Source: Tetraselmis striata
Lineage: Eukaryota > Chlorophyta > Chlorodendrophyceae > Chlorodendrales > Chlorodendraceae
Direction: 5' to 3'
Length of the DNA stretch: 64,000 nt
NCBI GenBank assembly: GCA_006384855.1
Contig: VCJN01002031.1
Span: forward strand, 18,442 to 82,441
Under the pieces are notes generated by a model, which saw only the letters and a list, made by a program, of their open reading frames with translations, made no database searches and had not been told where the DNA came from. The position numbers and the translations under genes are program-made. Shown here in pieces: positions 36,790 through 64,000 of the stretch. Position 1 is the stretch's first letter, and every line of letters starts with the position of its first letter.

Positions 36790-37060
36790 CCGGGAAAGGA
36801 CTGGCACCGGTGAAACCCTTGCAGCATCTCTACGACGGCCGTTTAGGCAGCAATCCAGTTACGGAAGCCCTGGGTGCGTGGGGGACGCTCCGTTATAGTC
36901 ATCAAGCAAATTACCGAAGCATTCTGCACGACTAATTGGAGGCCAGTGACGGAATTTCCAACACTGTTGGATCACCGTCTAAAACACTGCCATGAAAATA
37001 CCTGGCACTGGCCACGAAAGGTCCGCCCTAGCTACCCCGTTTGGGCGTCGGCCCATTCGA
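36790..37060 (+). mobile_element. LINE-type reverse transcriptase scrap, second copy
   Basis: Reads GGRSVIVIKQITEAFCTTN, then WRPVTEFPTLLDHRLKHC, the inverted relative of the fragment at 12238-12490. The two copies differ by scattered substitutions and indels, so they are independent old insertions. This one faces the larger minus-strand RT remnant that follows. Confidence 0.5.
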
Positions 37061-37179
37061 GTAATGCGAGTTGGGGCAAGCCCCAACCCCCGGAGCAAAG
37101 CATTTCGGGAGTGTGTTAGATGTGCAGCAAATAAGGCAATGTGAGGGAGGGCCCGACGCCATAGCTGGAACATTTTCTC

Positions 37180-43019: not shown

Positions 43020-44544
43020 GCCCATAAACACAACAGGCGGCCGTGCAGGCCCTGCTTCTTCCCGCAGCCCGAGCAGCAGAGACCCGAGGTCCACCAGTAG
43101 CCGCGCAAGGGAAAGGGGGAGGGGCAGGGGAAGACGTCACGTGGAGCGCCATCGCAGCCCACTGATAATAGCGACTGGGCGGCAGTTGCCTGAAACTCAG
43201 CAGGAATCCAGATTGATTATTCAGCCGAATTCTGGTCATTGAACTCAGATGAATCGTGCATGCTGCACCTACACGCCCTCGATTCACGCGTGACAAACGC
43301 ACCCATCATGTCACATGCAGCCTTAACTCCACGAACCCCGTGTCATCTTACATCCACATGGTAATGGTCAAGCGAAGGCAATGCCGCCAAACCAAAAAAC
43401 GACTGAACAGCTCACTGAAGTCAGCTGAGTTCAAATTTATTTGAGTTTGAGTTGTTTGAGTTTGCATTTGCTGAATAAATGGGCCATACTCAAACTCAAA
43501 CAATGTCTATAGCGCTTTCGGAAATCAATTCGGGATACGGCTGGGATGTGTCCGTCAGTTTTCGTCCTTCCAAATCATCCAAACTTATTAATAATATATA
43601 ATAGCACATTCCATTGAGGATGTCCCGTTGGGCCGGAGAGAACGCAAGGGCCCAACCGGGCGGGGTGGTGTGTGTCACCTTGGTGCAGCGGGCGAGGCCG
43701 GGGTTGAGCAGCACGGCGTAGAGGGCGCGGTAGAAGCGGTCCGAGATGGAGTTGCGCGAGGCCATGAGCTGGAAGAGCAGCATGAGCGCCTGCACCGCGA
43801 TGTTGAGGCTGGCCGAGTGCACGATGCGGAAGAGGTCCGGCGCGTGGCGGTCCACCAGCCCCTCCACCTCCTCCGCCTCCACGTACGGAAACGCGCGCCG
43901 CACGCCCGCCAGCAGCCCGCCCAGCAGCCGCGCGTCCATCTCCAGAAACTTGGCCAGCCGGGCGCCGCTGCCGCGCGCGCCGGCCTCCGGCGGGGCGCCC
44001 CGGCCCGCGCCCGCCACCACGCCCACCGCGCCCGCCCCTCCCGCCGTGGCCGCCCCTCCCGCCGCCCCTCCCGCCGCGGCCGCCGCCTCGCCCGCCGCCG
44101 CGCCCCGCCTTGCCGCCCTTGCCGGCGCCGGGCCCCTCCTTCGCCACGCGTGCCTCCTCGCGCGCGGCCGCCTCCGCCTGCGCGCCCGCCGAGCCCGCCA
44201 GCAGCATGCGGAACAGCGTGAAGTAGATGTCCAGCAGCTGGCGCGCGAGCTCGGGGCCGCCGCCCGCCTTGGCGCCGTGCCCCAGCACGATCTGGTTCAG
44301 GAAGACAACGGCGTAGTAGCGCGCACGATCCTGCAGGCGAGGCGCCACCCAGGCAGCGGCAGCGGCAGCGGCTCACGGGTCAGACACAATCGGGGAGTGG
44401 GGGGAACAGTGAGCCGCTTGCGGGCACAGCGGCTCCCGGCTGTAAGCGCGGTGGCGCTTCATCGCAGAGGCTCTACAGCCATTGAGATTTGATTGTATTG
44501 TAATTTTAGAACATATTTTGTCGTATTTTGCAATTACTCGTATA

Positions 44545-44575
<31 letters not shown>

Positions 44576-47376
44576 ATATATATTATATATATTATATATA
44601 TATATATATATATATTTGTTTATATAATATTGTATGATGTATGTGAATAGGATGTATAATGTATCCTGTATATATACATATACATATACATATATATATA
44701 TATATGGAAATACATACAGAAATATGTATAGAAATTTTACATATGTGTAAGTTATTTTTACATATGTATATATATATGACCGCGGTAGGGGTAATCTAGC
44801 AAAAGGATCGCGCCGGCGTAACAACATGGTACGTTCCAGTCAGACCCAGAGGAGGTTTGCGAGTACTCCGCCGGTGGTTCCGGGGCATCCCCAATAATTA
44901 AAATGCGTGTTGCGGTGGTACGTCACTGGTTGGACATTTCGTCCAACTCGTACAGCTCTGCGAATAATGGGCACTTTTTGTTGTAATATTACAACAAAAT
45001 GTCGATGGGCACTGCGGGTGCCGGCGCAGATGCAAGAGCCCTAAACACAAAGCCCCAGACTGGGCTTGCGTGCAACCCACACCGCTCGTGTTAGTCCCGC
45101 TACAGTTTCGTGTACGTTTGACCTCTGGCAGGCAGAGCAGGCTCATATTCGCGGTGCTCTTACTACCGCGCCGGTGCCCAAACGGGTGCCGACTCACTTT
45201 ATAGGACGCGTGGTTGTAAGCACCCGCCCTGCCCAGTTAGGCTAAAAGTTAGACGAATTTATCACAAATATAATTCGGATAGATTCACAAATTCTGAACA
45301 AAGATGCACAAGTGAACTGATAGACAGGAATTGCTACAGCCATTACGAATGTAAAAAACGCTATGCCGGCCGCCCCGATTAATTCATCAACCATTCACGT
45401 TCTTCAGAGTGCGTCGGCACCCGTACACTACACACTATCTTGGCAACATGTCCACACTTTGGTCAGGTCGAGCTCCGCCCAACCGCTGTGAAGAAGGAGG
45501 GGGTGGGTGGAAAGAGGGGGGGGGGGGGGGGGGGGGGGGTGGGAGACTGGCCGGAGTTGTTGCGATGTGCAGGAGGGACTGCACAGGGGGCGGGGAGGAA
45601 TGGGTGGAGGGGGGGGGGGGGGGGGGGCACCTGCAGGTTGGGGCGGAACACAAAGCGCTCCACCTCGCGCACCACGACGCGCTTCATGCCGGGGTGCTCG
45701 TCCAGCAGGCAGAGCAGCAGGTAGCCGGCCTTGGAAGCGAGCTTGCGGCTGGGGTCGCCCAGCTTGTTGACGACGAGGCTGAGCAGGCGCGCCTCCGCCT
45801 CGGGCTTGCTGCGCAGCAGCTCGTAGCCCGCCTTGAGCGCCTTCTCCTTGACGTACTCCAGGTTGTCGCGGCTGCACTCCTCCAGCGCCTCCACAAACAG
45901 CGCGTAGCGCCGCTTCACGCAGTCCTCCACGTGCCAGTACAGCAGGTGCGCGTTGCCCAGCCGGTTGGGCGGCAGCGACGCCAGCCCCGGCTGCTCCACC
46001 AGCAGCGCCAGCTTGCGGTCCGGCAGCAGGCTGCGCACAAACAGCTCCCGCAGCGCGTCGATCGTCTTGGCCACCACGTCGCGGCCACCCTTCTTCTTGG
46101 ACACCCACTTGAGCAGCGTGTCCAGGCTGCGCATGTTGGCGGCTGCGCTCTCCTGCACCAGCAGCGTCATCGCCGCGACCTGCCGACCGGGACAGGCAAA
46201 GGAGGGGGGGTTAGGAACCACACAAACACAAGATATCACATTTAAACATTCACACGTGCATGCACCATCTGAACAGGTACATGGAGGGGATGTGGACTGC
46301 GGACATCCGCAGCACCCGCACCTTGTCAGCGGTGGTGCCGCTCGCGCGCGACAGCTGCAGCCAGCGGGCCTCCGCCGAGTTGCGCTTCTCCAGGCGCTCC
46401 GTGAAGCGCGCCGCGACGCCCTCCTCCAGCTTCTCCGCGCGCGCCATGAGCGCGTCCATCTCGCCGTCGCTCAGCTCAACCAGGTTACCCTTGGCGGCCG
46501 GCAGCGGCTCCAGGCTGGCGGCTGCCAGGTGCCAGCAGCCCTCCTCGTCCAGGTTGCCCACCCCCATCGTCAGCGCGTTGGCCACCGACGCTGCGTGCAT
46601 AATAACGGCAAGTAACGGCCCCGGACGTCAGTCCCTCGACTGCACAGCCGAATGCACAGCCGCCATCCCCCCCCCCCCCCCCCCCCCCTCAACGAAATTT
46701 GTCTCCCTTCTATCCTTGCGAATGAACACTCATTCACAAGCTAGGTCGCCTATCATCAAACTCATGTTTTCCACAGTTTTCCGTACAGGGAAAAGCTCTT
46801 GGGTGCACGAACCTGGGGATCCTGTTCCCCTTTCCCCACTTTGCTCGATGCCATGGTTCACCGACGGGCTGTACACCACCACAGAGATACTGCCACGGTA
46901 CCGCCACAGCCGCACCACCCAGGAAGGCACCACCCACCTGGCCGCGGCCCGGCGCCAACGTTCCAGTCCCGACCGGTGCCGCCGCCCTTGGCATCCTTGC
47001 TCTTCCCCGCGGCCGGCCGCCCCGGCGGCCCCTCCTCCTCCTCCTCCTCCTCGCCCTCATCAAACGCGCCGTCGACGCCGTCGTCGCCGGCGCCGTCCCG
47101 CTTCCCCTTCTTCCCCTTGCGCTTCCCCTCCACCTTGCCGCCTTTGCGGCTTTTGTCGCCAGCGAGCCGCTTGCCGGCCACTTCGGGCGCGAAGTCATCG
47201 AAATCGGAGGCGGGCGCGGCTCCGCCGCCGGCGAGGCCAAGGCTTGCGGCGTACTTGGCGACGTCCTGGGCGAGGTCGGTCGCCTCGCCGCCGCCGGCGC
47301 CGCCAGCGCCGCAGACGTCAGCCGGCGCAGCGCCGTCGCTGGCGCCGCTGTGGAACTTGTTCGGCCGCTTGCCCAT
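38908..47376 (-). CDS. NOC1: NOC1/MAK21/CEBPZ ribosome biogenesis factor (8 exons)
   Basis: NOC1 (Mak21, CEBPZ) pairs with NOC2 in the nucleolus to mature and export pre-60S ribosomes. Exons on the minus strand: 47376-46938, 46590-46322, 46179-45631, 44330-43679, 42952-42797, 42291-41704, 41319-41203 and 39791-38908. The CBF domain is unmistakable: VAAMTLLVQESAAANMRSLD and LPDRKLALL (exon 3), FRPNLQ joined to DRARYYAVVFLNQ (exons 3 and 4), GVRRAFPYVEAEEVEGLVD and NIAVQALMLLFQL (exon 4), YDMRKREPEYAHAERSAWWE and GNPLQDMALTAFLDKF (exon 6), then ADAFFHKYFALAK (exon 8). The N- and C-termini are acidic and Lys-rich. Exon 4 is 652 nt and needs a frame change inside a Gly/Arg repeat (about 43990-44110). 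Exon 8 is 884 nt and needs one near 39405-39415 in a G run. Introns 3 and 5 start with poly-C on the coding strand. Confidence 0.95.
40060..40720. repeat. Dispersed intronic repeat, family B (NOC1 intron 7)
   Basis: Shares ordered landmarks with MED14 intron 7 at 14.9-15.7 kb (GGTGGTGCCTGGC, CCGCATTCCTGT, CACTTCCATCC). It lies antisense to NOC1. A shorter relative with CTGAATAAATGGG and CAAATCATCCAAACTTAT is in NOC1 intron 4 at 43430-43600. Confidence 0.55.
42759..42785. repeat. Poly-G tract (poly-C in NOC1 transcript), start of intron 5
   Basis: On the NOC1 strand the donor AAG|GTGCAGCGGGA is followed at once by about 27 C residues. This is one of the clearest examples of the donor-proximal poly-C pattern. 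Confidence 0.9.
42966..43015. repeat. (CA)n microsatellite next to NOC1 exon 5 acceptor
   Basis: A pure CA run, GT on the NOC1 strand, lies a few bases upstream of the exon 5 acceptor (GCCCCGCAG|GCG), where a pyrimidine tract would normally sit. Confidence 0.95.
44540..44780. repeat. (AT)n-rich satellite (NOC1 intron 3)
   Basis: Uninterrupted and near-uninterrupted TA runs followed by TATACATA repeats. The strands can fold back on themselves. No coding content. Confidence 0.95.
45005..45192 (-). repeat. MITE-like repeat, family A (NOC1 intron 3)
   Basis: The best-bounded family member. GGGTGCCGGCGCAG at about 45018 and GCGCCGGTGCCC at about 45162-45173 form inverted ends. Between them lie GCTTGCGTGCAACCC and CGCTACAGTTTCGTGTACG in the reverse of the order seen in the MED14 introns. 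Confidence 0.7.
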
Positions 47377-47860: not shown

Positions 47861-49739
47861 ATGACCCCGAGGAAATCTCGTCTTGCGAATATAAGGCCTC
47901 ATGGTGAGCCCGGTGGTTCACCGAGTGCCATGCGATGAGAGGGCACCCCGATCCGCGGCCAAGCATGCGACACCGCACACAGTGCGGCGCCTTGCTCACC
48001 TCACCCACTGTGCCAAAGACAATGCCCGTGTACTCCGACATATCCATGATGTCTCGAAGAGAGAGGTTCTGTCCCGGCTCCGAGTTGTGCCACGCCGCAT
48101 CCCGCACTGCCATCCCCGTTGTATGTCGCCCAACATGGAGCGCTCAAACCGATCCACAGCCGTGGCCCAGGGCACCGCAGTGTACTTGACCCCGTACCGC
48201 ATAGTCTCCGGCATTGTGGACTTCAAGCTCCGGAGATCATAGCTCCCGGTCACGACTTTGAACGCCGGGAGGGAGAGCTCTGCGTCCGGCACAAGGTCCT
48301 TGAGTTCATCTCTGGGTACGGTGGTGCCGAGAGGCCCAGCCTGCTGGAACAAGTCGTCCACCTCCCGGCGTGCAACGGCACCCAGATCGTGAACACAATG
48401 ATCGCGGAAGGCGTCTGCGATAGCGTCGTGATGTACACATCAGTGCGCGTCTCCATGTGCCGGGAGGTTCATGAGCGCGTCGCCATAGGGGTCGACGGTG
48501 ACAGGGTTTTGCTATGTCGAGAGCGGAATGATATGGCTCCCGACCACTGGGGGCCAAGCATGGGCTAGGCATGAAGAAGAACCCGGAAGCGACCCCCCGC
48601 AGCTCATGCGGAGTCATGACCGTCCGCGCGGTGGGGATGGCCACCGTCCACATGCCCGACGCTGCGTCGAGCTGGTGGCTTAAGATCCGTTCCCTACATG
48701 TGACATGGAGAGCGCACACCTCATTTTGAAGCCGAGAGTTGTTGGCATGGTCTAGAATAAATGCCGTTGGCTCCTTTTGCGAGCCGGACACAGCCTCCGC
48801 CTCCCGCTCCATCACGCGGGCATCTGCGTCGCTAAGATGGCCAGCAGTAGCCGCATGGAGGCGGCCCCACGCCTCGCAAACCGCCCCGGTGTAGATGGCC
48901 GACCCACGAGCATCGTTCAGGAAGTGGTCATACCGGCGGACGGAAGAAGTTGCGTTGAAGATGCCTCGGCCAAGTCACACTCAAGCCGTGGGTCAAAGAA
49001 ACCATGGGTGGGGGTGTTGGTGTCGGAGTTCCTAGTGAGAAACCTCGGCAGGATGTCATTCATGCAGCCGATAAAGGCGTCATCACGAACGGTAGCCATG
49101 CGGCGGATGCTAGCGCCCTTCAACCGAGTGGGGAGGTGAAGCATGCTGCGCGCCCTGGCCAATGCATCCTCGCTCAAAGTAGCCGCCTCTGCAACCATGG
49201 GGTCAGGGTCATGCAAAAGCTCCGCCAGGGTATCGGCGACCACCGGATTGGTGTCGGTGATGTACGTGGAGGGATCAAAAGAGACCCCTAGCACCCGCTC
49301 GACCGCCGTGAGGACGGCGGCATCCACCGCCTCCACGAAGGCCTCCACCTCGGACGGGAGGCAGTTGCGGAGCCAACACCCCGCCTTGTGCTGCATGCAA
49401 TGCTTGAGCACGGCGCATGCATGGTGGTGCAGGGCGTGGGTGTACCGACGGATGGGCTTGGCAGATAGGAGCTTGCTTAGGCTGGCGTCCACCTCCTCTC
49501 GTAGCTCCTCCGCCTTGCCGCGCATGCATGTAAGCATGCACATATCTTGGCGATCCAAACGGCATGTTGAGGACCGGGATGCTGTGGTGGCCATCCAGCT
49601 TGGGCCACTCGATCTCGGCCGGAGCTCCACGCCGCGCGGCCTTCATGTCCGCGTTGCACGCGTGCTTCTAGTCGAAGCGCACCTCAAGCCGAACGGACGC
49701 CTGGGTGGACGTATGGATGGCGTGAAGGGCCGGCCAAAC
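47860..49739 (-). pseudogene. Non-LTR-type retroelement pseudogene (RT C-terminal half)
   Basis: Reading down from 49660, the minus strand gives HHSIPVLNMPFGSPRYVHAY, then after a frame change SLSKLLSAKPIRRYTHALHH, CWLRNCLPSEVEAFVEAVDA, and ARSMLHLPTRLKGASIRRMA with AFIGCMNDILPRF. This is the RT thumb and following domain of a LINE-like element. Further on come TVAIPTARTVMTPHELRGVA, RHDAIADAFRDH-like sequence in another frame, VPRDELKDLVPDAELSLPAF and DIMDMSEYTGIVFGTVGEVS. At least three frame changes break it. Its upstream end stops where the TIR element begins at 49740, so the element probably inserted into it. Confidence 0.65.
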
Positions 49740-49984
49740 CACTGTGAGATTCAGATGTGACGTAAATGTGCCCTACTGGTGACGAACGACGACATACGGG
49801 GACGATACGGGACGGACGAGGGACGTGGATTTCATACCCAGTAGCGACGACTATCGCGCGCGACCTGTAAAGTACTATATGAATTTCTCGTTTCCATAAT
49901 TTCATCAAATTGATATGCGCACGCGGGCTCGCGTGTCGCCCGCCGACGCGGAGCACCCGGGCTAAGTACAGGCGGATGTACGCA

Positions 49985-50080
49985 CTCATTGCACATCGCC
50001 GCACATCGCTGACCGCACATCGCTGACCGCTGACCCCGCGGTGTGCCGCGATGTGCGGCACGACGGGCGGAGGTGTGGGC
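49985..50080. repeat. Short tandem and inverted repeats near the element's left end
   Basis: ATCGCTGACCGCAC-type repeats and GCCGCACATCGC are followed by the inverse GCGATGTGCGGC, then GGTAGGTGGTAGGCGGTAGG. They may be subterminal transposase-binding repeats. Confidence 0.45.
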
Positions 50081-50350
50081 GGATGTAGGTGGTACGGTAG
50101 GTGGTAGGCGGTAGGTGGTGTTCGTAGGTGCGCGTTTTAATGCAGCCGCCCTAACTGCTGATGATTGTGTAACGCCCCAGCACGCGCATGAAGTATGGGG
50201 TCGCCTCACGGTCACCGCCGCTCACCGTTGAATCAAGCGCGGACAGCCGCGCACTCGCATCTGTGTTGCCTGCCGGTGGTGGGTTACATCCACCCCAACT
50301 CTCAACCCCCCCCCCCCCCCCCCCCCCGCCCCCCGCGCGCGGCAGCAGGC

Positions 50351-51760
50351 ATGCCGGCAAAGGGATGGATAGCGAGTGTGTCGAAGGATGGCGTGTACTC
50401 ATGCAAGCACTGCCGGGGCAACGTGACGGGCACTTGTGATAAGATGGCGCGAGAGCGGCACTTCCTAAAATTCCCGAACTGTAGCCACTCGTTGAAGCGT
50501 GCGGCTAAGTTGCGCCGCAAGGCCGCCTTATCACAAGCAGCAGCAGCAGGGGCGGCAGCAGCAGCAGCAACAACAACAGGGGCGGCAGCAGGAGTAGCTG
50601 CAGCCGTCGGAAACGGCCCGCCGGCGCCGGTCTCGGACGACGGCGGCTCGAAGGTGGACGATGTGATGGGCGTGGGGGAGGACCCCGTTGGCGAAGACGG
50701 TATGGACATCGACGCGCCTGCGTGGCCGCCGGCGGGCGTGGAACCCGCGATGAGGGCGTGATATGGAAAGGCGATTCCGGCGACTTCTACATGAAGGTCA
50801 TCGCCAAGAAGTTCCGGGGGGTATGGCACTACGGCGTGATAACCGGCGTCGTTACCGAGTGGGTGTTGGAGGACTACGGCGGGGCGACCCAGTGGCGCGC
50901 TGTTTTCGAGGACGGGGGCATTGTGGGCCTTCTGCGTTCAGAGGTGAGTGGGCCCGGCCTGCGTGCTGGTGGCACCACTCAACTGCGGTTGTATGGAATC
51001 ACACGCACCCGCCCGGTCGGCGTGGCAGGTTGTGGAGGCTATGGCGGCTGCCCAGGAGCACCCCCCTGTGGATGCGGACGGGGAGGCTCGCTTGGTAACC
51101 GTCCATGAAGGCGATGACTTGTCCAGTGAATCACGCACCTTGCCCGGCGTGCGGTCAACACAACCCGGCTGGCGGAGGCCAAGCAGAACACTGGCTGCCA
51201 TGGCGTGTGCCATGTGCATGTGGTCCGGGGCTATGTCAGCATGGTCAACCTCTTCCCCCTCGCGCCGTTCCACCTGTTTTTTTTGGCTTGGGAAGGGACT
51301 TCTGGAGGAAATTTGTCACCGTGCAGGGCCACATTGGATTCCGAGCTATGAAGCAGGAAGACCGGCGCCAGGCTTTAGTCCCGATACCCAGCAACTTTGA
51401 ACGCGGGTTGCGCCCTTCGTTTGCAGTGTCCAAGAATCGAAAGGTAAACCCCTCCCCCCCCCCCCCCCCCCCCGGGCGTGGGCGTGGGCGTGGGCGTGAC
51501 GGCATTCCCCTCCATGACTGCAGGGTCAGGCAAGGTGACGGTGCAGCCCGGCTGGGTCATGGAGGACTGCTTGCACCACATGGAAACGTTTTCCATTCTT
51601 AACGCCGGTCCGCTCCTCGAGGAGGCCCGGGTGAAGGCGATCATGACCGAGAAGGAGCTTCGCGTCCCCAGGCGGTGCTTGGGCACATGTACAAGCGCAT
51701 GCAAGGAGCTGCGTGGTTCGTCACGCGGTGGGGGTTGCAGAATGTGGTGACGGAGGAGGA
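50351..51760 (+). CDS. Element-encoded zinc-finger and SH3/Tudor-like protein, spliced
   Basis: Not a recognised family. Proposed exons: 50351-50699, 50771-50943, 51029-51094, 51327-51443, and 51535 onward. Exon 1 (MPAKGWIASVSKDGVYSCKH…) holds a BED-like pattern: C-x2-C, then H, C and H within KHCRGNV, RERHFLKFPNCSH, followed by Ala/Gln repeats and an acidic stretch. Exon 2 gives DFYMKVIAKKFRGVWHYGVI and WRAVFEDGGIVGLLRSE, the beta-barrel pattern of chromatin-reader SH3/Tudor-like domains. Exon 4 reads PIPSNFERGLRPSFAVSKNR and its donor AAG|GTAAACCCC runs into poly-C like host introns. Exon 5 (VTVQPGWVMEDCLHHMETF) shifts frame near 51670 into GHMYKRMQGAAWFVTRW and then the minisatellite. DNA or chromatin targeting is inferred only. 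Confidence 0.5.
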
Positions 51761-51828
51761 CGGCCCCGAGCGCAAGGCGCAGGTGGACGCGCTCACTAGG
51801 GAGGGGAGGACTCGATACCCAGCGCGGC

Positions 51829-52590
51829 GCCAAGGCGCGGCGGCCGGGGCAGCGCGGCGCCAAGGCGCGGCGGCCGGGGCAGCGCGGCGCCAAGGCGCGG
51901 CGGCCGGGGCAGCGCGGCGCCAAGGCGCGGCGGCCGGGGCAGCGCGGCGCCAAGGCGCGGCGGCCGGGGCAGCGCGGCGCCAAGGCGCGGCGGCCGGGGC
52001 AGCGCGGCGCCAAGGCGCGGCGGCCGGGGCAGCGCGGCGCCAAGGCGCGGCGGCCGGGGCAGCGCGGCGCCAAGGCGCGGCGGCCGGGGCAGCGCGGCGC
52101 CAAGGCGCGGCGGCCGGGGCAGCGCGGCGCCAAGGCGCGGCGGCCGGGGCAGCGCGGCGCCAAGGCGCGGCGGCCGGGGCAGCGCGGCGCCAAGGCGCGG
52201 CGGCCGGGGCAGCGCGGCGCCAAGGCGCGGCGGCCGGGGCAGCGCGGCGCCAAGGCGCGGCGGCCGGGGCAGCGCGGCGCCAAGGCGCGGCGGCCGGGGC
52301 AGCGCGGCGCCAAGGCGCGGCGGCCGGGGCAGCGCGGCGCCAAGGCGCGGCGGCCGGGGCAGCGCGGCGCCAAGGCGCGGCGGCCGGGGCAGCGCGGCGC
52401 CAACGCGAGTGGGATGGGCGGGGCAGCGCGGCGCCAAGGCGCGGCGGACGGGGCAGCGCGGCGCCAAGGCGCGGCGGCCGGGGCAGCGCGGCGCCAAGGC
52501 GCGGCGGCCGGGGCAGCGCGGCGCCAAGGCGCGGCGGCCGGGGCAGCGCGGCGCCAAGGCGCGGCGGCCGGGGCAGCGCGGCGCCAAGAC
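51829..52590. repeat. 30-bp GC-rich minisatellite, about 25 copies
   Basis: The unit starts GCGCGGCGCCAAGGCGCGGC and is 30 bp long. About 19 consecutive copies (to about 52399) are identical, followed by a 25-bp spacer with GAGTGGGATGGGCGG and five to six more near-identical copies. The unit length is a multiple of three and lacks stops in several frames on both strands, so it makes long artificial ORFs, including 456 codons on the minus strand. In the frame of the upstream gene it encodes ARRQGAAAGA repeats. Confidence 0.95.
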
Positions 52591-53179
52591 AGCGCATACA
52601 GCGGAATCGGCGGAAAGGGATGCATTACAAGTTGTGGACGGCAGGCGCTGAAAACTATGCGGTCATGCCGCAACAACCCCAGCACTGGCTTCTGGATACC
52701 TCTGATCTGGCTGACGGCGGCGGGCTGCGGGATGCAGGGCCGCATGACTGAGGTGGCGGTGCTGGTGAGCCCGGAGAGTCTGCATGCGGCGGAGGCGGCA
52801 GAGCCGCATAGGCACTAGACAATGCTCTGAAGCGAGCCCCAATTGTCTGCCCAGCGCCTGCCCCAATGTAACGCACCAGCTTGGCAGCAATTGGCAGCTC
52901 TTTTGCCCCCCCTCCACCCCACAGACACACTACCAATACCAGTTTCTCATCCCGGCGGGCAGTTGATGCGTATACCCAGGCTTGTGCGTCCGCGGTGCGG
53001 GGGGGGGGGGGGGGGGGGGGGAATCACTATAGCTAAGCTAGTGATGTGAGATATGAGTGCAGCAACAGATATTGTGCAAGATATAATACGATGGCATGCA
53101 AGCGGGTCCCCGCTCTTCCACAATCATTGGCCCTGCTCCCTCTTGCCCCGCCCCCGGTGCCCTTTAGCTGCTCTCAGCA

Positions 53180-53500
53180 TCCCGAGTGGGATGGGCGGGG
53201 CAGCGGTTGCTACCGAGTGAGGCGTAGCATCGTTTGCAGTAGCAACGCAGCCTTTCCGGTGTGACGCCGCCTGGATGTAACCCAGCAGTACGCGCAAAGT
53301 GCAAGTGCAAGCTGCTGATGGCGGGGATCCCGCGCGGGGGGGGGGGGGGGGGGGGGCAGCGGCTGTGGGATAGGCGGGGCAGCGGTTGCTACCGAGTGAG
53401 GCGTAGCATCGTTTGCAGTAGCAACGCAGCCTTTCCGGTTGCATAGTGTGACACCGCTTGGATGTAACCCAGCAGTACGCGCAAAGTGCAAGTGTTACAC
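53180..53500. repeat. Direct duplication of a ~125-bp segment
   Basis: GGGCGGGGCAGCGGTTGCTA through CGCAGCCTTTCCGG and CCAGCAGTACGCGCAAAGTG occurs at about 53190-53312 and again at 53373-53493, separated by a poly-G run at 53337-53356. The leading phrase GAGTGGGATGGGCGGGGCAG also interrupts the 30-bp minisatellite at 52406. Confidence 0.85.
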
Positions 53501-53536
53501 GTCCGTGTGCCCCACCCAATGACATTGCGCCCGACC

Positions 53537-54655
53537 TCACTGACGGCATGTCTCGCTCTCCTTCAGCTCCTGGGCCGTCCGCCGCCTCACCCTGCGCACC
53601 CTACCAGCCGCGCGTGCCTTCTCGGAAGCCTCACACACGGCGGCGCGAGTCGCGTCGTGGAACGCGTCCCTGACATGGCGGAACTCCGCCCTCACCGTGG
53701 CCGTGGTCGGGCAGAGGACTGCCCGCTGATGGGTCGCCATGCATGGGTACTTGGGGCCGCACAAAGCCGGGGTGCCGTCGCAGCAACACTCCCAGTCCGT
53801 CCGTTGGCCGCAGTCCACGCATGACGGGCGTCCGGCCAGGACACGCACATGATAGTGCATGTGGCCGCCTCCCGCCACTGCTCGTAGTGCTCCGGTCAAC
53901 ATGGCGACGAGCAAGTCGGCATGTCCCGCAGGTGGCTGCGGGGCGGGTGGCGCGAGCGCAGCCTCGCTCGCCTCGACAACCCCCTCAGCCCGATCAGTCG
54001 CCTCGACCACGACCTCCTCCGCCTCCTGACGCGGCGCACCAGGCGCATCATCGTCGCCTGGCAGGGCGTCCCCCCCCGCAACGGCGCCGTCGGCGGTGGC
54101 CGACGCCGTCGTGGCGGGGTGTTGTGAGGAGGTGGCCCTAGACATAGGTGGGGCCGGCACCGCCATGTGTTGCTCCACATGCGGTGCGGTTCCTGACGCG
54201 ACAGCTCCGTCGCACCAGTACCGGCGCCGGCACCCCACGCCTGTTGGGATTACCACCAACCGGCATGTTTCCTTTGGGAGGCGGTTCATCCGCGTCGGAG
54301 GTGAGCGGCGGTGCCTGTGTGGGTGTGAATACTGCCCGGCCATAAGGCTCCCGCCGCCTGCCGCTCCGCCGACCCAAGCCGCGGCGTGTGCTGCGCCCCG
54401 CATAGTCGCCTCGAATATAATATACATGACGCGGGGACGGGGGGGGGGGGGGGGGGGGGGGGGATTCGTGCGTTTCGTATGTCGGCGGAAAGGCGTGCGA
54501 AGCTGCGGCTGGCGAAGGTGGTGGAAATAAGCGTGGCGGCGTCGGCGGCGTATTACCGTGCGTGCATGCGTGCGCAACCCCGCGGCAGCAAGCGCCGGAC
54601 TCGGCGTGTGCCGGCGGCAGAGCTGCGAAGCCATGGACACGGTACGGGATGCCAA
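53537..54655 (-). CDS. Element ORF with transposase-like Cys-rich tail
   Basis: A 372-codon minus-strand ORF. The first 75 or so residues include a poly-Pro run from a poly-G tract (about 54440-54463), so the true start is uncertain; an internal Met begins MRGAAHAAAWVGGAAGG. The middle is Ala-, Pro- and acid-rich. The distal part reads RPSCVDCGQRTDWECC, then CGPKYPCMATHQRAVLC, a C-x2-C … C … C … H arrangement much like the C-terminal cysteine-rich domain of PiggyBac and related transposases. A basic tail (GRVRRVRRRTAQELKE) follows. No DDE catalytic core is visible upstream, so it may be a DNA-binding accessory protein or a degraded transposase end. Confidence 0.45.
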   Translation of the reverse strand: MASRTVSMASQLCRRHTPSPALAAAGLRTHARTVIRRRRRHAYFHHLRQPQLRTPFRRHTKRTNPPPPPPPPRPRVMYIIFEATMRGAAHAAAWVGGAAGGGSLMAGQYSHPHRHRRSPPTRMNRLPKETCRLVVIPTGVGCRRRYWCDGAVASGTAPHVEQHMAVPAPPMSRATSSQHPATTASATADGAVAGGDALPGDDDAPGAPRQEAEEVVVEATDRAEGVVEASEAALAPPAPQPPAGHADLLVAMLTGALRAVAGGGHMHYHVRVLAGRPSCVDCGQRTDWECCCDGTPALCGPKYPCMATHQRAVLCPTTATVRAEFRHVRDAFHDATRAAVCEASEKARAAGRVRRVRRRTAQELKESETCRQ

Positions 54656-55150
54656 GTTTGGCTAAGCAACTGCCGAGGCTGGCGGCTTAACCCCCATGTC
54701 CGGCGGTTAAGGGACGGAAAGTGCGTAGAAGTTGATCGGCAAAGCGGGCATATAAGCCTGGCTGTGCTAGGTTCCTATTAAGTAATGGCGGTTTGTGCTA
54801 AGTAATTCGTAGGGGTGGAACATGCAGCGCAGGTAGGGGGCGGTATAAATGAGGCCGGGCACATATACTGCTCCACGAAACGACACTGTCGCACGTGTAG
54901 TTGAATAGACGCCCCCCCCCCCCCCCCCCCCCCGCCGGGTCGGCCCGCCGACCCGCCACGGCATGTAATATCTGTCATGCATCGCCGGGGTATGTGTGAG
55001 TGGATGCCCCGCCGCCACACACCCCCCCCCCCAAGCCCCCCCCCCCCCCCCCCCCCCATTTACACTTGTGCACTCATTAAGTTTGGGCTGGTTTCGGAGC
55101 AGTACATGTACGTATGTATATACATACAATGGAACGTAGGACCTGCGCGG

Positions 55151-56310
55151 AAAGAGGCGGGGCTGGCGGAGTGCGTTGGGGGTGCGTAGAGTAGCGTGTT
55201 GGTGAGATTCGGGGTGCATCGGACGCCGGATGCCCATCCACCCAGCGTAAAAGACGCGTACGTAATATTCACACTATATATATTCACACGCAAATGTGTG
55301 AAAACCGGACATACCGTGCCGGATGGGTGGGAATACGGCGTCCGATGCAGCCAAAACCCCAGGGACACGCTATTCTATGCACCGCCAATGCACTCCGCCA
55401 GCACCGCCTCATTCTCTGTCGATTTCGAAAACGCCTTCACATTATCCACCGCTAATTGCAATTGCCACCGTGTAATATGTTGTCACGATGTGCGCACACA
55501 ACAACACTTACTACCGGTTCCGACGCGGATGGAGGCGAGGCTTGCGGAGTGCGTTGGGGGTGCGTAGAGTAGCGTGCTGCAAATAATTGGGGTGCATCGG
55601 ACGCCGGATGCCCATCCACCCGGCGTAAAAGACGCGTAATATTCACACTTTATTAACACACAAATGTGTAAAAACCGGACATTCCGTGCCGGATGGGTGG
55701 GAATACGGCGTCCGATGCAGCCAAAACCCCAGGGACACGCTATTCTATGCACCGCCAATGCACTCCGCCAGCACCGCCTCATTCTCTGTCGATTTCGAAA
55801 ACGCCTTCACATTATCCACCGCTAATTGCAATTGCCACCGTGTAATATGTTGTCACGATGTGCGCACACAACAACACTTACTACCGGTTCCGACGCGGAT
55901 GGAGGCGAGGCTTGCGGAGTGCGTTGGGGGTGCGTAGAGTAGCGTGCTGCAAATAATTGGGGTGCATCGGACGCCGGATGCCCATCCACCCGGCGTAAAA
56001 GACGCGTAATATTCACACTTTATTAACACACAAATGTGTAAAAACCGGACATTCCGTGCCGGATGGGTGGGAATACGGCGTCCGATGCAGCCAAAACCCC
56101 AGGGACACGCTATTCTATGCACCGCCAATGCACTCCGCCAGCACCGCCTCATTCTTTGTCGATTTCGAAAACGCCTTCACATTATCCACCGCTAATAATT
56201 GCAATTGCCACCGTGTAATGTTGTCACGATGTGCGCACACAACAACACTTACTACCGGTTCCGACGCGGATGGAGGCGAGGCTTGCGGAGTGCACTGGCG
56301 GTGCACAGAC
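55151..56310. repeat. 370-bp satellite, three units (copy 1)
   Basis: Three near-identical units start near 55165, 55544 and 55914 with a period of 370 bp (the phrase CTACCGGTTCCGACGCGGAT recurs at 55511, 55881 and 56256). Each unit contains GCATCGGACGCCG and, about 110 bp later, its inverse CGGCGTCCGATGC. The inverted copy of the element carries one unit fewer. Each unit is partly open in several frames, but the frames are repeats of one another and resemble no protein. Confidence 0.92.
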
Positions 56311-56409
56311 TAGCGGGAGACTAGATCCATTGTCGCTTATTTACAAGCACGGGCGGTGCTGGCCAGACCTGATCGTCTACGGCCGATATAATATTCACAC
56401 TAAATTAAC

Positions 56410-56465
56410 ATCGGTGCACACCGCCGCACACCGCCGCACACCGCCGCACACCGCTGCGCGCGCAC
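56410..56465. repeat. Short CACCGCCGCA tandem repeat
   Basis: CACACCGCCG repeated about four times, mirrored at 63060-63110 in the inverted copy. Confidence 0.8.
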
Positions 56466-56744
56466 ATTCGTCGCACACATTATCCCGGATTCACTCGCCG
56501 TATCCATTACGCCGTGCTACTTCAACAATAAACATTGCGAAATTACACCGACACAATGCCGCACCGACTAGCTCTTGACAATACGTGCATATAAATAGTA
56601 GTGGCGCGCTGCTCCTCGCCTCCGATGTGTCGTTGACTGCTGCGGAAGGCGGTCGTCGACTGGGTGTTAGTTTCTCCACCTCGGCCGCCCCCCCGCCCCC
56701 CCCCCCCCCCGCCCCCCCCCCCCCCCCTTCACCGCTCACAGCGC

Positions 56745-57335
56745 CATGGCCGACCTCGCCCCCCCGGGCAAACGTGGGCGGCGAGCCTTGTTGTCTCGCG
56801 TGTCCGCGCCGCCGGCATCGAGGAGGACGAGAAAGACATGAGGAAACGCGTGACAAGGTGGGCGCGCAACAAAACACTCCATCCTCCACATTAGCACGCA
56901 CCCACTCGTGGCTAACTTGTGCCGCACGCAGGTTCGTCCGGGAGCGCCGTTAAGGCCCACCTCAACGCCAAGGCTTCCACAGTGCCAGCGGCGCAACTCG
57001 TGGTGGCCGAGGAGGCCGCATCCTCAGCCGCTTAAAGGCGAAACGATTGTGGCTTGTTGTGGGTGTCTGGGCACAGGGGGCGTCCCGACGCGAAGGTAAG
57101 GAAGCTCATGGCGGCGTCGTCGACGGCACAGCCTCCCGGGGTGGTGAAGACACTGACGGATGACAAGAAGCGGAAGAGGCCAGTGAAGAAACGCCGAGGT
57201 AAGAAACTGACGGTCGCGGAGTCGGAGGCGGAGTCGGAGGCGCAGGCGGAGGCGGAGGCGGAGGCGGAGGCGGAGGCAGCGAGATCGTCGAAGCGGAGGG
57301 TCCCGCGGGCACGCAAGAACAAGAACAAGCAGTAG
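56745..57335 (+). CDS. Small basic nuclear-type protein(s) of the element, copy 1
   Basis: The clearest ORF is 57108-57335 (75 residues, starting MAASSTAQPPGVV). It has a bipartite-style basic run DDKKRKRPVKKRRGKK, an EAEAEAEA repeat, and a basic tail ending RVPRARKNKNKQ. The basic runs would suit nuclear import or DNA binding. Upstream, 56937-57034 encodes SSGSAVKAHLNAKASTVPAA in a frame ending at a stop, and 56822-56880 reads GIEEDEKDMRKRVTR, possibly earlier exons joined over GGTGGGCGCG…CACGCAG. The model upstream of 57108 is unsure. An equivalent ORF is in the inverted copy with one visible change (Asp to Gly in the basic run). Confidence 0.45.
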
Positions 57336-58349
57336 CCCCCGCCCCCTTACCCCCCCCCCCCCCCCCCCCCCAGGCGGGAGCGGCTGGCGGCGAGGGGGGG
57401 CGGGGGTGGGCGGGGCGGGCGTGGTCCCCCCCGCCCCCGCACACCCCCCCCCCCCCCCCCCCCCGCCGGGCCACATCCCCCGATGGCAGCTGTCGCGAAT
57501 ATTGTAATTCAATCATTCTTCGGCAAACCGCTGCCTGCCCCCGCCCTCCCCCTCGCGAATATTTATGTAACGTGAGCACTCTTTGGCAAAACATGGCAGC
57601 CAAACCGCCCATCTGATGACCTTTGATCGGACGGCTGGCAGGCCCGATCAGCAGTACTAGTACTGCAAATTCCCCAGTGTTACCAAATACGTGCGTACGG
57701 CTGCGATTTGCGCTCCCATGAACTAATAGTCGTAGTTATCCACAGGACGACTAGGGTTCGTACTAGATACCCGGTACCGGCGTAATAAATATATCGCGTA
57801 CTACCCGGTACTACACGGACAACCTTGTACCTTGTACGTCAGTGCCATGTACGCTTCACCGGGCTGGTACGACTACCAGAATGATGACAAAAAGGATTTA
57901 TCGCCCGCCGGCAATAACGCCGGATGTACTCGCACGTAACTGGATGGACGTGCCGCCACCAGCAGCAGCCTTCACGGATAAATAATAGTCGCTAGTAGTA
58001 GTGCTTCGTCACCTGTATGTCACATCTGAATCTCACAGTGCGCATGGGCTGGACGCCGCCCCTTCAAGCGGAGTGTCACTGGAATCACAGCGTGCACGAG
58101 GACGATCAAGCCGCCCGCGGTCAAACCTCCAGCACGTCGACTACATAGACCGAGTCAGCAGCTCGAGCAGGTGGACAAGCCATGGTCGCTATCAACCATG
58201 CTTGCTGGCGGTTTGTTCCCACACATAGCTATCTGTAGCGACTAGTCGCTATGCGTGGAAGATATTGCACAGGTCCCGGTATTGAATCATGGCCGATGTA
58301 TCGTTTACTTTAACTGGTAGCGAGTGCGGTGTCCTGGCAAATACTACAC

Positions 58350-59345
58350 CATCCCCCGTTTGTATGAGTTCCCGGGTCGGTCCGACCGTCAGACCCGGGA
58401 ACTTATGCCGACTAGGGCGCTCAGTGGTAGAGCGAGTGACTACGAGTATGTATGTTGGCGGCTCGAGACCGGCCGGGCCGTGAGAGCTTAGTCGTCACTG
58501 CATATTCGTACCCGGTACTGTCTCATCTCGTAACAAAGACGCAGTGATTCAGTACCGGGGTACGTCGCGAATTGAATGAGGACCTGAAAAATGGGCCAAC
58601 GTGCGGATAGGCGGGCTGGTCCCAGCTCGCCTAGGCCGTCTGTCCGGATTGCGAGTACATGTACCCGCAATACCGGCAAAACCCCATCCCCGTTTGTATG
58701 AGTTCCCTGGTCGGTCCAGCCATAAGACCCGGGAACTTATGCTGACTAGGGCGCTCATTGTAGAGCGAGTGACTACGAGTATGTAAGTCGGCGGCCCGAG
58801 ACCGGCCGGGCCGTGAGAGCTTAGTCGTCACTGCATACTCGTACCAGTAATGTCTCATCTCGTAACAAAGACGCAGTGATTCAGTACCGGGGTACGTCGC
58901 GGCTTGAATGAGGACCTGAAAAATGGGCCAACGTGCGGATAGGCGGGCTGGTCCCAGCTCGCCTAGGCCGTCTGTCCGGATTGCGAGTACATGTACCCGC
59001 AATACCGGCAAAACCCCATCCCCGTTTGTATGAGTTCCCTGGTCGGTCCAGCCATAAGACCCGGGAACTTATGCTGACTAGGGCGCTCATTGTAGAGCGA
59101 GTGACTACGAGTATGTAAGTCGGCGGCCCGAGACCGGCCGGGCCGTGAGAGCTTAGTCGTCACTGCATACTCGTACCAGTAATGTCTCATCTCGTAACAA
59201 AGACGCAGTGATTCAGTACCGGGGTACGTCGCGGCTTGAATGAGGACCTGAAAAATGGGCCAACGTGCGGATAGGCGGGCTGGTCCCAGCTCGCCTAGGC
59301 CGTCTGTCCGGATTGCGAGTACATGTACCCGCAATACCGGCAAAA
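58350..59345. repeat. Tandem array of three ~332-bp tRNA-like units
   Basis: Units start near 58361, 58695 and 59027. Each contains a hairpin (AGTTCCCGGGTC at 58367-58378 pairing with GACCCGGGAACT at 58392-58403 in unit 1) followed by GGCGCTCAGTGGTAGAGCG, a tRNA D-arm/A-box sequence, and about 30 nt later GGCTCGAGACC, a B-box-like sequence. Units 2 and 3 are nearly identical to each other and have decayed boxes (GCTCATTGTAGAGCG, GGCCCGAGACC). This suggests an amplified tRNA-derived element. Confidence 0.75.
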
Positions 59346-59359
59346 AACCTACAAGGTAC

Positions 59360-59690
59360 ACCCTTGTCCGCTCGGTAGAGCGGTCGTCTCGTAAGCGAAA
59401 GACCCGGGTTCGATTCATGGCCGATGTATTTCGGCAATATCGGCCGGCGTGTCCCGGGTTTACCCGGTTGATGCATTTGCCCTTCGGGGTTCGAATGAGG
59501 CAATGGTCTACGGGCTATGCTAGACCTACGACTGCAGTTGGCGCACGAGGTCAAGTGCTGGGGCGGCTTCGGCCGAGGCAATGGTCTACGGGCTATGCTA
59601 GACCTACGACTGCAGTTGGCGCACGAGGTCAAGTGCTAGGGCGGCTTCGGCCGATGTCCCGGGGCGAACTTTTATTACACTTCGTAATTA
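59360..59690 (+). mobile_element. SINE (family S) with tRNA-Thr-like head
   Basis: 59365-59417 folds as most of a tRNA: D-arm CCGCTCGGTAGAGCGG, anticodon loop CTCGTAA (anticodon CGT, Thr) and T-arm GGGTTCGATTC. The 3' acceptor half is replaced by the SINE body. The body then matches the 33.5-kb copy, but a 78-bp segment (AGGCAATGGTCTACGGGCTA…GGCTTCGGCCG) is tandemly duplicated at 59498-59653. It ends GGGGCGAACTTTTATTACAC. It is not a functional tRNA gene. Confidence 0.65.
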
Positions 59691-60038
59691 TTGACAAAAA
59701 TATGGAATTGCAGTTTACGTAAATTATTACCGGTACCGGTACCATCCCCGTAAATATTGCCTCGTAAATATTGATTGTCGAGAATATACCGTAATATTTC
59801 TCGCATGCGCATGTTGGTAATCATGCGCGCGTTCCCGACGCGGTTTCGTCTTGCGGCTCGTCGTGCGAGTGCACCAATCAATGACCGCGCGCGCAACAGA
59901 ACGATAAATACATAGTATGTATGATACATTTCACGAATACGACGGGTACCATAGCAGTACATCCGGCTCGTGCGGGATGCGAGCCGCCTTGAAGTGGCGG
60001 TTTTTGTTGATCCTTAGTACTTCTTTTAGCGGTGGATT

Positions 60039-60731
60039 TGTTGGGACAGTACCTCGTACATTCATGTGGTGTGGTCCTCGGCCCGGTTCAGACGGGTATT
60101 CAAGCTCTACAATATCGGATGATGACATCCAAGTCCGATCGGCACCCTTTTCGAGCTTGATATCTCAACATGGATTTGAATGGATTCTCAACATTCTGTG
60201 TGGATTTCTTGAATGTTGCGTCTAGCTCATGTAATCATATCTCAACATGGTTTCGGAGCTTAGGTGGCGAGCATGTATGACAACAGACCCGTGCAGTTGG
60301 CGCACGAGGTCAAGTGCTGGTGCGGCTTCGGCCGATGTCCCGGGGCGAACTTTACTTTTACTTTAACAGACCCGGGTTCGACTCCCGCTTGAAGCATTTC
60401 AAGATTTCATGGGTTCTCCTTCTTCCGCTATATCCGGTGTAAGACCGATTCGCAGCTTCCGGTGACGCGATCATCAATTCCCAGAAATTCTCCTACATCA
60501 AGGCTCAAGCGCGGATGATTCCGGCTTCTATGGCTCAGGTCCTAGGATCTCTACCCAGACTTTCCTGTCCTCCCTCTCCTCGGAACCAGGAGGGATGTTG
60601 GGACAGTACCTCGTACAGTTCTGTGGTGTGGTCGTCGGCCCGGTTCAGACGGGTATTCAAGCTCTACAATATCGGATGATGACATACATCCAAGTCCGAT
60701 CGACACCCTTTTCGGGCTTCATATCTCAACA
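60039..60731. mobile_element. TRIM-type miniature LTR retrotransposon
   Basis: Two direct repeats, 60039-60170 and 60596-60731, each begin TGTTGGGACAGTACCTCGTA and end ATATCTCAACA (TG…CA termini within TGTTG…CAACA). The flanking 5-mers are identical, GGATT at 60034-60038 and 60732-60736, as expected for an integrase-generated duplication. A purine tract (AGGAGGGA) sits directly before the second LTR. The internal part is only 425 bp with no coding capacity, includes a tRNA-like segment (GGAGCTTAGGTGGCGAGC … GGTTCGACTCCCGC), and is split by a SINE insertion. Confidence 0.88.
60292..60364 (+). mobile_element. 5'-truncated SINE (family S) nested in the TRIM
   Basis: The insert starts TGCAGTTGGCGCACGAGG and ends GGGGCGAACTTTACTTTTAC plus TTT. 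It is flanked by the perfect 10-bp duplication AACAGACCCG at 60282-60291 and 60365-60374. Removing it restores the TRIM's tRNA-like segment. The TRIM therefore predates this SINE insertion. Confidence 0.88.
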
Positions 60732-61060
60732 GGATTTATTAATGGCCTTTTTGTATATTCAAACCAGCATCGTTACGGGTACCCGCCCCGTGTTTATGTG
60801 TACTCGTATAGTATTCGTGGTATGCCGCGGGTACGAGTCTACCAGTTCATACCGTACATCCCACCACCCACCAAGCGGTACAGTTCACACCAGAGACATC
60901 CCACCACCCACCCAGCGGGCCCGGAGGCGCTGCGGGGCCGTGTGTCGCCATGCCTCACCCGCCGCCCAGATCGCGTAGCTGCCCTCAACCCCCTCCCACG
61001 CGACGTCACCGTTATGCCCGGGCTGTGGCGGGTCGCTTGTATCCGGCGGGGTGCCGCGCG

Positions 61061-61506
61061 ATGTCTGCGCCATCCGCCGATGGTGCGGCAGAACGCGCCG
61101 TTGACCCCGGGTCGCCGCATCCCCCCAGTACATCGTCCAGTATATCAAGCAGCCCCGGCGCATCGCGTGCGGCGGGAGCGTCGCCCGCGGCAACACCGTC
61201 CAGCGGCAGTGCACCCGACGCCACCCAGCCAAGGCCGAGCCCGCCCGCGGCTGCCGCCCCGCCGGCTCCCACGTACGCCCAGGCGGTGAGCCGGTCGTCG
61301 AGTCCCGAGTCCGCGACGGGCGCGGCAGGTACGACCGGCGCGCGCGCTGCCTCGCCTGTGTCGCCGCCTCGCCGCCAGTACTTTCAGCAGTATTTCGGGG
61401 CCCGGCGCGTCGCAGCGCGATCACGATGGCGCTCCGACCGGCCAGGAAGTCTCCGAGCGGCCCCTGCCGCGGCCGCGCGGCGGCAACCGCGGCCTAGCGC
61501 TCACCG
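61061..61506 (+). pseudogene. Ala/Pro/Ser-rich ORF cut by the second TIR element
   Basis: From the ATG at 61061 the frame reads MSAPSADGAAERAVDPGSPH, a long Ser/Pro/Ala region, then APTYAQAVSRSSSPES and RRQYFQQYFGARR. PTYAQAVSR-like sequence is common before the RNA-binding part of retroelement ORF1/Gag proteins, so it may be a retroelement 5' ORF. The frame runs straight into the element terminus at 61507 and is evidently interrupted there. Confidence 0.35.
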
Positions 61507-62205
61507 CACTGTGAGATTCAGATGTGACATACAGGTGACGAAGCACTACTACTAGCGACTATTATTTATCCGTGAAGGCTGCTGCTGGTGGCGGCACGTC
61601 CATCCAGTTACGTGCGAGTACATCCGGCGTTATTGCCGGCGGGCGATAAATCCTTTTTGTCATCATTCTGGTAGTCGTACCAGCCCGGTGAAGCGTACAT
61701 GGCACTGACGTACAAGGTACAAGGTTGTCCGTGTAGTACCGGGTAGTACGCGATATATTTATTACGCCGGTACCGGGTATCTAGTACGAACCCTAGTCGT
61801 CCTGTGGATAACTACGACTATTAGTTCATGGGAGCGCAAATCGCAGCCGTACGCACGTATTTGGTAACACTGGGGAATTTGCAGTACTAGTACTGCTGAT
61901 CGGGCCTGCCAGCCGTCCGATCAAAGGTCATCAGATGGGCGGTTTGGCTGCCATGTTTTGCCAAAGAGTGCTCACGTTACATAAATATTCGCGAGGGGGA
62001 GGGCGGGGGCAGGCAGCGGTTTGCCGAAGAATGATTGAATTACAATATTCGCGACAGCTGCCATCGGGGGATGTGGCCCGGCGGGGGGGGGGGGGGGGGG
62101 GGGGTGTGCGGGGGCGGGGGGGACCACGCCCGCCCCGCCCACCCCCGCCCCCCCTCGCCGCCAGCCGCTCCCGCCTGGGGGGGGGGGGGGGTAAGGGGGC
62201 GGGGG

Positions 62206-62433
62206 CTACTGCTTGTTCTTGTTCTTGCGTGCCCGCGGGACCCTCCGCTTCGACGATCTCGCTGCCTCCGCCTCCGCCTCCGCCTCCGCCTCCGCCTGCG
62301 CCTCCGACTCCGCCTCCGACTCCGCGACCGTCAGTTTCTTACCTCGGCGTTTCTTCACTGGCCTCTTCCGCTTCTTGCCATCCGTCAGTGTCTTCACCAC
62401 CCCGGGAGGCTGTGCCGTCGACGACGCCGCCAT
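62206..62433 (-). CDS. Small basic protein of the element, copy 2
   Basis: Equivalent to the ORF at 57108-57335 in copy 1: 75 residues starting MAASSTAQPPGVV, with the same NLS-like KKRKRPVKKRRGKK run and Glu-Ala repeat. The one amino-acid difference I see is Gly for Asp just before the basic run. Conservation of the open frame in both copies, while the flanking homopolymers have changed length, hints that it is real, but the copies may simply be young. Confidence 0.45.
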   Translation of the reverse strand: MAASSTAQPPGVVKTLTDGKKRKRPVKKRRGKKLTVAESEAESEAQAEAEAEAEAEAARSSKRRVPRARKNKNKQ

Positions 62434-63209
62434 GAGCTTCCTTACCTTCGCGTCGGGACGCCCCCTGTGCCCAGACACCCACAACAAGCCACAATCGTTT
62501 CGCCTTTAAGCGGCTGAGGATGCGGCCTCCTCGGCCACCACGAGTTGCGCCGCTGGCACTGTGGAAGCCTTGGCGTTGAGGTGGGCCTTAACGGCGCTCC
62601 CGGACGAACCTGCGCGCGGCACAAGTTAGCCACGAGTGGGTGCGTGCTAATGTGGAGGATGGAGTGTTTTGTTGCGCGCCCACCTTGTCACGCGTTTCCT
62701 CATGTCTTTCTCGTCCTCCTCGATGCCGGCGGCGCGGACACGCGAGACAACAAGGCTCGCCGCCCACGTTTGCCCGGGGGGGCGAGGTCGGCCATGGCGC
62801 TGTGAGCGGTGAAGGGGGGGGGGGGGGGGGGCGGCCGAGGTGGAGAAACTAACACCCAGTCGACGACCGCCTTCCGCAGCAGTCAACGACACATCGGAGG
62901 CGAGGAGCAGCGCGCCACTACTATTTATATGCACGTATTGTCAAGAGCTAGTCGGTGCGGCATTGTGTCGGTGTAATTTCGCAATGTTTATTGTTGAAGT
63001 AGCACGGCGTAATGGATACGGCGAGTGAATCCGGGATAATGTGTGCGACGAATGTGCGCGCGCAGCGGTGTGCGGCGGTGTGCGGCGGTGTGCGGCGGTG
63101 TGCACCGATGTTAATTTAGTGTGAATATTATATCGGCCGTAGACGATCAGGTCTGGCAGCACCGCCCGTGCTTGTAAATAAGCGACAATGGATCTAGTCT
63201 CCCGCTAGT

Positions 63210-64000
63210 CTGTGCACCGCCAGTGCACTCCGCAAGCCTCGCATCCATCCGCGTCGGAACCGGTAGTAAGTGTTGTTGTGTGCGCACATCGTGACAACAT
63301 TACACGGTGGCAATTGCAATTATTAGCGGTGGATAATGTGAAGGCGTTTTCGAAATCGACAAAGAATGAGGCGGTGCTGGCGGAGTGCATTGGCGGTGCA
63401 TAGAATAGCGTGTCCCTGGGGTTTTGGCTGCATCGGACGCCGTATTCCCACCCATCCGGCACGGAATGTCCGGTTTTCACACATTTGTGTGTTAATAAAG
63501 TGTGAATATTACGCGTCTTTTACGCCGGGTGGATGGGCATCCGGCGTCCGATGCACCCCAATTATTTGCAGCACGCTACTCTACGCACCCCCAACGCACT
63601 CCGCAAGCCTCGCCTCCATCCGCGTCGGAACCGGTAGTAAGTGTTGTTGTGTGCGCACATCGTGACAACATATTACACGGTGGCAATTGCAATTAGCGGT
63701 GGATAATGTGAAGGCGTTTTCGAAATCGACAGAGAATGAGGCGGTGCTGGCGGAGTGCATTGGCGGTGCATAGAATAGCGTGTCCCTGGGGTTTTGGCTG
63801 CATCGGACGCCGTATTCCCACCCATCCGGCACGGTATGTCCGGTTTTCACACATTTGCGGCGTGTGAATATATATAGTGTGAATATTACGTACGCGTCTT
63901 TTACGCTGGGTGGATGGGCATCCGGCGTCCGATGCACCCCGAATCTCACCAACACGCTACTCTACGCACCCCCAACGCACTCCGCCAGCCCCGCCTCTTT
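63210..64000. repeat. 370-bp satellite, about two units (copy 2)
   Basis: Inverted counterpart of 55151-56310. One complete unit fewer is present before the window ends at the position matching 55151. The 13-bp internal inverted repeat (GCATCGGACGCCG / CGGCGTCCGATGC) is retained in each unit. Confidence 0.9.

Follow-up and report, generated by a model that had tools for sequence, protein, structure and literature searches.

The right-hand part of a 64,000-base stretch of the Tetraselmis striata genome (contig VCJN01002031.1, positions 18,442 to 82,441; hereafter the window) holds a giant near-palindrome. This palindrome is two independent insertions of one transposable element family, in opposite orientation and 3.5 kb apart. 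The family is likely to be a recently amplified non-autonomous cut-and-paste DNA transposon of the EnSpm/CACTA type in a green alga. The arrangement is of an ordinary kind for repeats, though one of its members (copy 1, to the left; copy 2 lies to the right) has flanks from two places, and the palindrome itself has no demonstrated role.

Two facing insertions

A preliminary description, made from the letters of the window, had proposed a discrete element of ∼8 kb with terminal inverted repeats (TIRs), bounded by CACTGTGAGATTCAGATGTG, and a second, inverted copy entering at 61507. Termini found genome-wide and the target sites uphold this. The 20-base terminus is present as an exact match at 49740 (+), 58021-58040 (-) and 61507 (+), with no further site within the window, confirming that the symmetry starts at a shared terminus that recurs at 49740. 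BLAST paired 55532-58042 with 63997-61505 in inverted orientation at 97.6% identity. It also returned a second inverted block, 55151-55944 against 64000-63203, because the arm holds a 370-bp tandem array; the co-linear partner of 64000 is therefore ∼55532. Thus the reported reverse complementarity of 55151-58040 and 61507-64000 is real, but its limit at 55151 came from the array and lies one repeat unit too far out. Globally aligned, the arms mismatch at 12 of 2474 columns (10 within the array), with indels in the array and in homopolymers; over the final 1690 bases there were 2 mismatches and 4 gaps. Length and identity exclude a chance origin of the symmetry. A fold-back artefact at the contig end is unlikely, as the symmetry begins at the terminus and the flanks differ. 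The contig (82441 bases) stops at window base 64000, inside copy 2, which is therefore incomplete, its outer terminus out of view.

Copy 2 is a clean independent insertion into another dispersed repeat. The ∼603 bases preceding 61507 recur at 24 other places among those listed, at 97–99% identity (40 of 4766 candidates scored, a scope shared by the spacer search below). The site was empty in all eight relatives fetched: their sequence continues to GCCTCG without the element, preceded by ...CACCG in seven and ...CACCA in one. The exact insertion point is therefore 61507.

The two arms are mutually nearest over their last 1.7 kb among 19 copies fetched from the genome. However, when 40 of 1319 candidates were scored, the final 561 bp of copy 1 proved identical not only to copy 2 but also to a copy on contig C2500, and nearly identical to one on C2006. 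The arms may therefore be so alike because they belong to a young subgroup, and not because they are paired. Gene conversion is likewise unneeded as a source of special arm identity, the third copy being equally identical over the 561 bp tested.

The earlier proposal that such a pair forms a composite transposon, or an inversion hot spot, able to mobilise the 3.5-kb spacer strikes us as highly improbable. It draws on the right ends facing each other across 3.5 kb, on the closeness of the arms, and on the first 100 terminus places, which include no facing pair separated by 3.5 kb or less; their two facing gaps below 20 kb measured 12 and 16 kb. Yet the whole spacer was located at one place only (40 of 4766 candidates scored), parts of it belong to unrelated dispersed repeats, copy 2 has its own target site, and the arm identity is equalled on C2500 over the right-hand 561 bp. 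From the observed density, chance alone should place roughly a dozen pairs of elements this near to each other in the genome, a few of them with right ends facing (a hand estimate, 0.029/2 × ∼940); the computed values of 27 and 54 for close pairs include both sides and both end types. Chance would thus yield a few inverted pairs as close as the present one. With no second spacer locus seen, mobilisation of the spacer as a unit is not supported.

A search for an allelic copy of the spacer, with 40 of 2640 candidates scored, brought none to light. The spacer's 332-bp tandem repeat (58349-59345, three units) occurs elsewhere in the genome at 88–94%. Spacer segments 59445-59672 and 60292-60364 share a dispersed repeat with 33486-33645, inverted and 96–97% alike.

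The transposon family

A genome-wide search for the 20-bp terminus gave 999 + 880 = 1879 exact occurrences in the 224-Mb genome; the reversed sequence gave none. With the left end lengthened to 29 bases, 440 + 362 = 802 exact occurrences were found. The first 100 terminus places contained 30 plus/minus pairs within 16 kb, of which 28 spanned 6–9 kb and two 13–14 kb (median of the 30, 8069 bases); 40 places lay outside any such pair. Terminus abundance and pair sizes together thus describe a high-copy TIR element of ∼8 kb, with a copy number, inferred from termini, on the order of 800–1000. We fetched 21 of the 30 pairs, 19 of ordinary size and the two long ones, leaving nine; these were chosen for both exact termini and hence have the same ends by selection. 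Retained alignment blocks of the 19 copies were mostly 93–99% identical to the window copy, with a few at 84–91%. If most of the near-identical 8-kb copies are full length, they would make up an estimated 3% or so of the assembly, and a family this large offers many opportunities for ectopic recombination and for breaks in the assembly. The 20-mer had no match in viral contigs. In literature searches, from which the terminus letters themselves were left out, we saw no naming of this family.

The element ends in CAC...GTG (CACTG...CAGTG) with exact 20-bp inverted termini. Among 22 copies (the 21 fetched plus copy 1), 12 had an exact 3-bp target duplication and none an exact match of 2, 4, 5 or 6 bp. 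In a control pairing left and right flanks of different copies, 9 of 462 combinations matched exactly over 3 bp. Because the 3-bp duplications adjoin the selected termini, these are true element ends. The 12 exact triplets were of 11 kinds. One subterminal 8-mer occurs four times, a number reached in 0 of 200 mononucleotide shuffles, but the stretch also contains a 14-bp tandem repeat. Transposition would proceed by a staggered 3-bp cut of the target in a cut-and-paste mechanism, the transposase presumably being supplied in trans and encoded elsewhere.

Such ends together with a 3-bp duplication are consistent with classification as EnSpm, according to PMC12730594, and the sunflower CACTA elements reported in PMC7139988 were mostly non-autonomous. 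Non-autonomous EnSpm/CACTA members such as sunflower Tetu1 resemble the algal family, by these same accounts (PMC12730594, PMC7139988), in CAC..GTG ends, short TIRs, 3-bp duplications and many copies without a recognised transposase. The algal family differs in that no transposase of the superfamily is tied to it, its ends are CACTG rather than CACTA, and its elements are 8 kb long with minisatellites inside. Plavaka and other CMCT lineages share mostly CA..TG ends and, across the clade, target duplications of 2–5 bp, but Plavaka termini are given as TGT..ACA or CATCA..TGATG (both from PMC12730594), and a genome search with PF18759, an insensitive one, gave nothing. Canonical PIF/Harbinger members also make 3-bp duplications, according to the same source (PMC12730594); here, by contrast, 11 kinds occur among the 12 exact triplets, and it is EnSpm for which CAC..GTG termini are cited. 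The kinship with CMC/CACTA first suggested by the CACTG end is therefore borne out by the ends and the 3-bp duplication. The element's description as apparently unclassified stands in one respect, as no transposase was found, and falls in the other, as ends and duplication fit EnSpm/CACTA.

Six-frame Pfam scans of the element, at E up to 0.5, recognised no family and no transposase. The larger putative exons showed no third-position excess of change (unique substitutions in 19 copies), and the first gene was out of frame in all 18 rows matched by pattern, two of the 20 full copies being unmatched. As there is no recognised transposase, mostly no purifying selection and one broken frame, we read the element as probably non-autonomous. 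The short all-beta segment of the first gene (50761-50940) was modelled with a mean predicted local distance difference test score (pLDDT) of 66.8, from two sequences. It had no Foldseek match at E ≤ 0.001, and SETDB1 Tudor entries appeared only at E 1.4 and above; within the long relative, a Tudor profile fell short of its cut-off (E 0.25) in one frame of L053. A Tudor likeness of the modelled segment is a guess.

Both long copies are on contig C142. One (L052, 13.9 kb, exact CCG duplication) carries an extra 2.2-kb gene segment (L052:1873-4078) that the window copy lacks. The 99-residue exon in this segment shows a THIDGQ...THRGP (HxD...H-R) pattern that may be reminiscent of 2-oxoglutarate dioxygenases; its protein belonged to no Pfam family, and its only match to a solved structure was a ribosomal protein at E 1.3. 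The other (L050-L051, 13.0 kb, exact ATA duplication) has a 4.4-kb insert of about three 1.52-kb tandem units.

Several observations weigh against a non-autonomous EnSpm/CACTA family. An exact target duplication is missing from ten of the 22 copies, including copy 1. Genome searches with PF02992, PF18758 and PF18759 gave 0 matches, likewise 0 in 14 control genomes, and so are uninformative. The all-beta segment (7 of 15) and two others (5 of 11; 10 of 26) lean towards synonymous change, in numbers too small for a judgement. One of the two copies unmatched by pattern, L045, reads through the frame break of the first gene. The 99-residue exon of the extra L052 segment had 150 scored matches out of 241 candidates genome-wide, 74–100% alike and mostly open; given this conserved segment in longer relatives, some members of the family may have a coding function.

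An autonomous element carrying an unrecognised, intron-split transposase would accommodate the open first gene of L045, the several frames with splice-like borders by eye (the genome search worked exon by exon) and the end pairs, 28 of 30 of which bracket an element of full length (another 40 of the 100 places lie outside such pairs). We hold it unlikely, in view of the empty Pfam scans, the larger frames without third-position excess and the first gene broken in 18 of 18 rows. Quite unlikely, too, is a broader scenario in which a green-algal CMC-like lineage has an unrecognised transposase, its longer members encode a dioxygenase-like protein, much as fungal transposons carry TET/JBP genes, and exchange leaves many copies with mixed flanks.

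Mixed flanks of copy 1

Copy 1 is chimeric, its left and right flanks stemming from different insertions; the earlier view of 49740-58040 as one intact insertion thus does not hold. Its flanking triplets are AAC and CGC, with no target duplication. The left flank belongs to the same larger repeat that copy 2 entered; both stretches of this repeat occur on contigs C158, C382, C383, C1267, C1890 and C2146, 1.7–1.85 kb apart and in the same relative orientation. The flank derives from a more distant repeat copy, 88–89% like 39 other listed places. In all six fetched relatives the repeat carries on beyond the breakpoint into sequence that does not significantly match the part starting at 58041; farther along two of the six, short stretches match other parts of the window. 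This repeat looks retrotransposon-like by eye, Pfam found nothing in it, and we leave it unnamed. For the right flank, contig C2471 holds a relative at 94% (one sequence, present twice), which starts within two bases of the junction and extends leftward into sequence not found in the window. With orphaned half-sites on both sides, copy 1 therefore joins halves of two insertions. An inversion between copies 1 and 2 was rejected as the source, since exchanging their inner flanks would leave the repeat interrupted and create no duplication.

Copy 1 would have arisen by recombination between two members of the family, or by an assembly join inside the 8-kb repeat; we infer ectopic recombination rather than misassembly. 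The chance that reads of two insertions were merged inside a near-identical 8-kb repeat, so that no such single molecule exists, falls just short of even. A join of this kind would suit the two orphaned half-sites, the ten of 22 copies without duplication, the ending of the contig inside copy 2, and the 93–99% likeness of most aligned blocks. Against it, copies that keep their duplication are mosaic as well, which points to real exchange, though consensus mixing could imitate it. In the left part, 145 of 946 pairs of informative sites were four-gamete pairs among 11 of the 12 duplication-bearing copies (C142b left out); in the right part, where homopolymers make the figures less safe, 1545 of 3160 were, among 10 of the 12 (C142a and C142b left out). 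The ten copies without duplication gave 254 of 990 (left part) and 410 of 2211 (right part). Mosaicism thus supports exchange between copies, a pattern that mixing of reads by the assembler could also produce. The left part of copy 1 has no bearing on the palindrome in the strict sense, which comprises that copy's right part, the spacer and copy 2; eight uninterrupted relatives confirm where copy 2 entered. With 10 of 22 copies lacking a duplication, the family is a good test of real flank exchange between copies.

Feature map, host genome and other repeats

Table 1. Features of the two copies, their flanks and the spacer, in window coordinates
Feature	Position	Strand	Remarks
Copy 1, full-length element with inverted 20-bp termini	49740..58040	+	Chimeric flanks, no target duplication (AAC / CGC)
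Left TIR, copy 1	49740..49764	+	20 bp exact, ∼25 bp with one mismatch
Right TIR, copy 1	58016..58040	-	
Copy 2, right-hand 2.5 kb of inverted copy	61507..64000	-	Cut by contig end
Right TIR, copy 2	61507..61531	+	Inserted after ...CTCACCG in another repeat
Putative degenerate gene	50351..50942	+	Cys/His-rich part (zinc-finger-like by eye) and short all-beta part, separated in copy 1 by a frame break
30-bp minisatellite, 25.5 units, within element	51820..52588		
374-residue stop-to-stop frame, cysteine-rich C-terminus	53537..54661	-	No family match, no clear purifying selection among copies
370-bp tandem array, 3.1 units, within element	55146..56315		Copy 2 reaches the same array at contig end
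Spacer between copies	58041..61506		58041-58345 nearly single-copy; 332-bp tandem repeat; other dispersed repeats
Repeat entered by copy 2, within spacer	∼60904-61506		
Left flank of copy 1, dispersed repeat	48740..49739	-	88–89% to other copies; uninterrupted past breakpoint in 6/6 relatives

Light-harvesting genes are present in the genome, and one fetched frame matches chlorophyll a/b-binding proteins; the top match, 9vfj_2, scores via two domains (∼211 and 204 bits), while the best single-domain matches reach 311 bits. Judged by these genes, the host is a chlorophyll a/b alga. In several contig pairs, C48/C2047 and C476/C1576 among them, light-harvesting genes score the same or almost so, suggesting either recent duplicates or an assembly that contains two haplotypes.

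Two further repeats were noted in the window. An inverted BLAST self-match (84–94%) marks a short self-complementary stretch at 44535-44641, and 12225-12499 and 36797-37077 form an inverted repeat pair, 25 kb apart and 82% identical.

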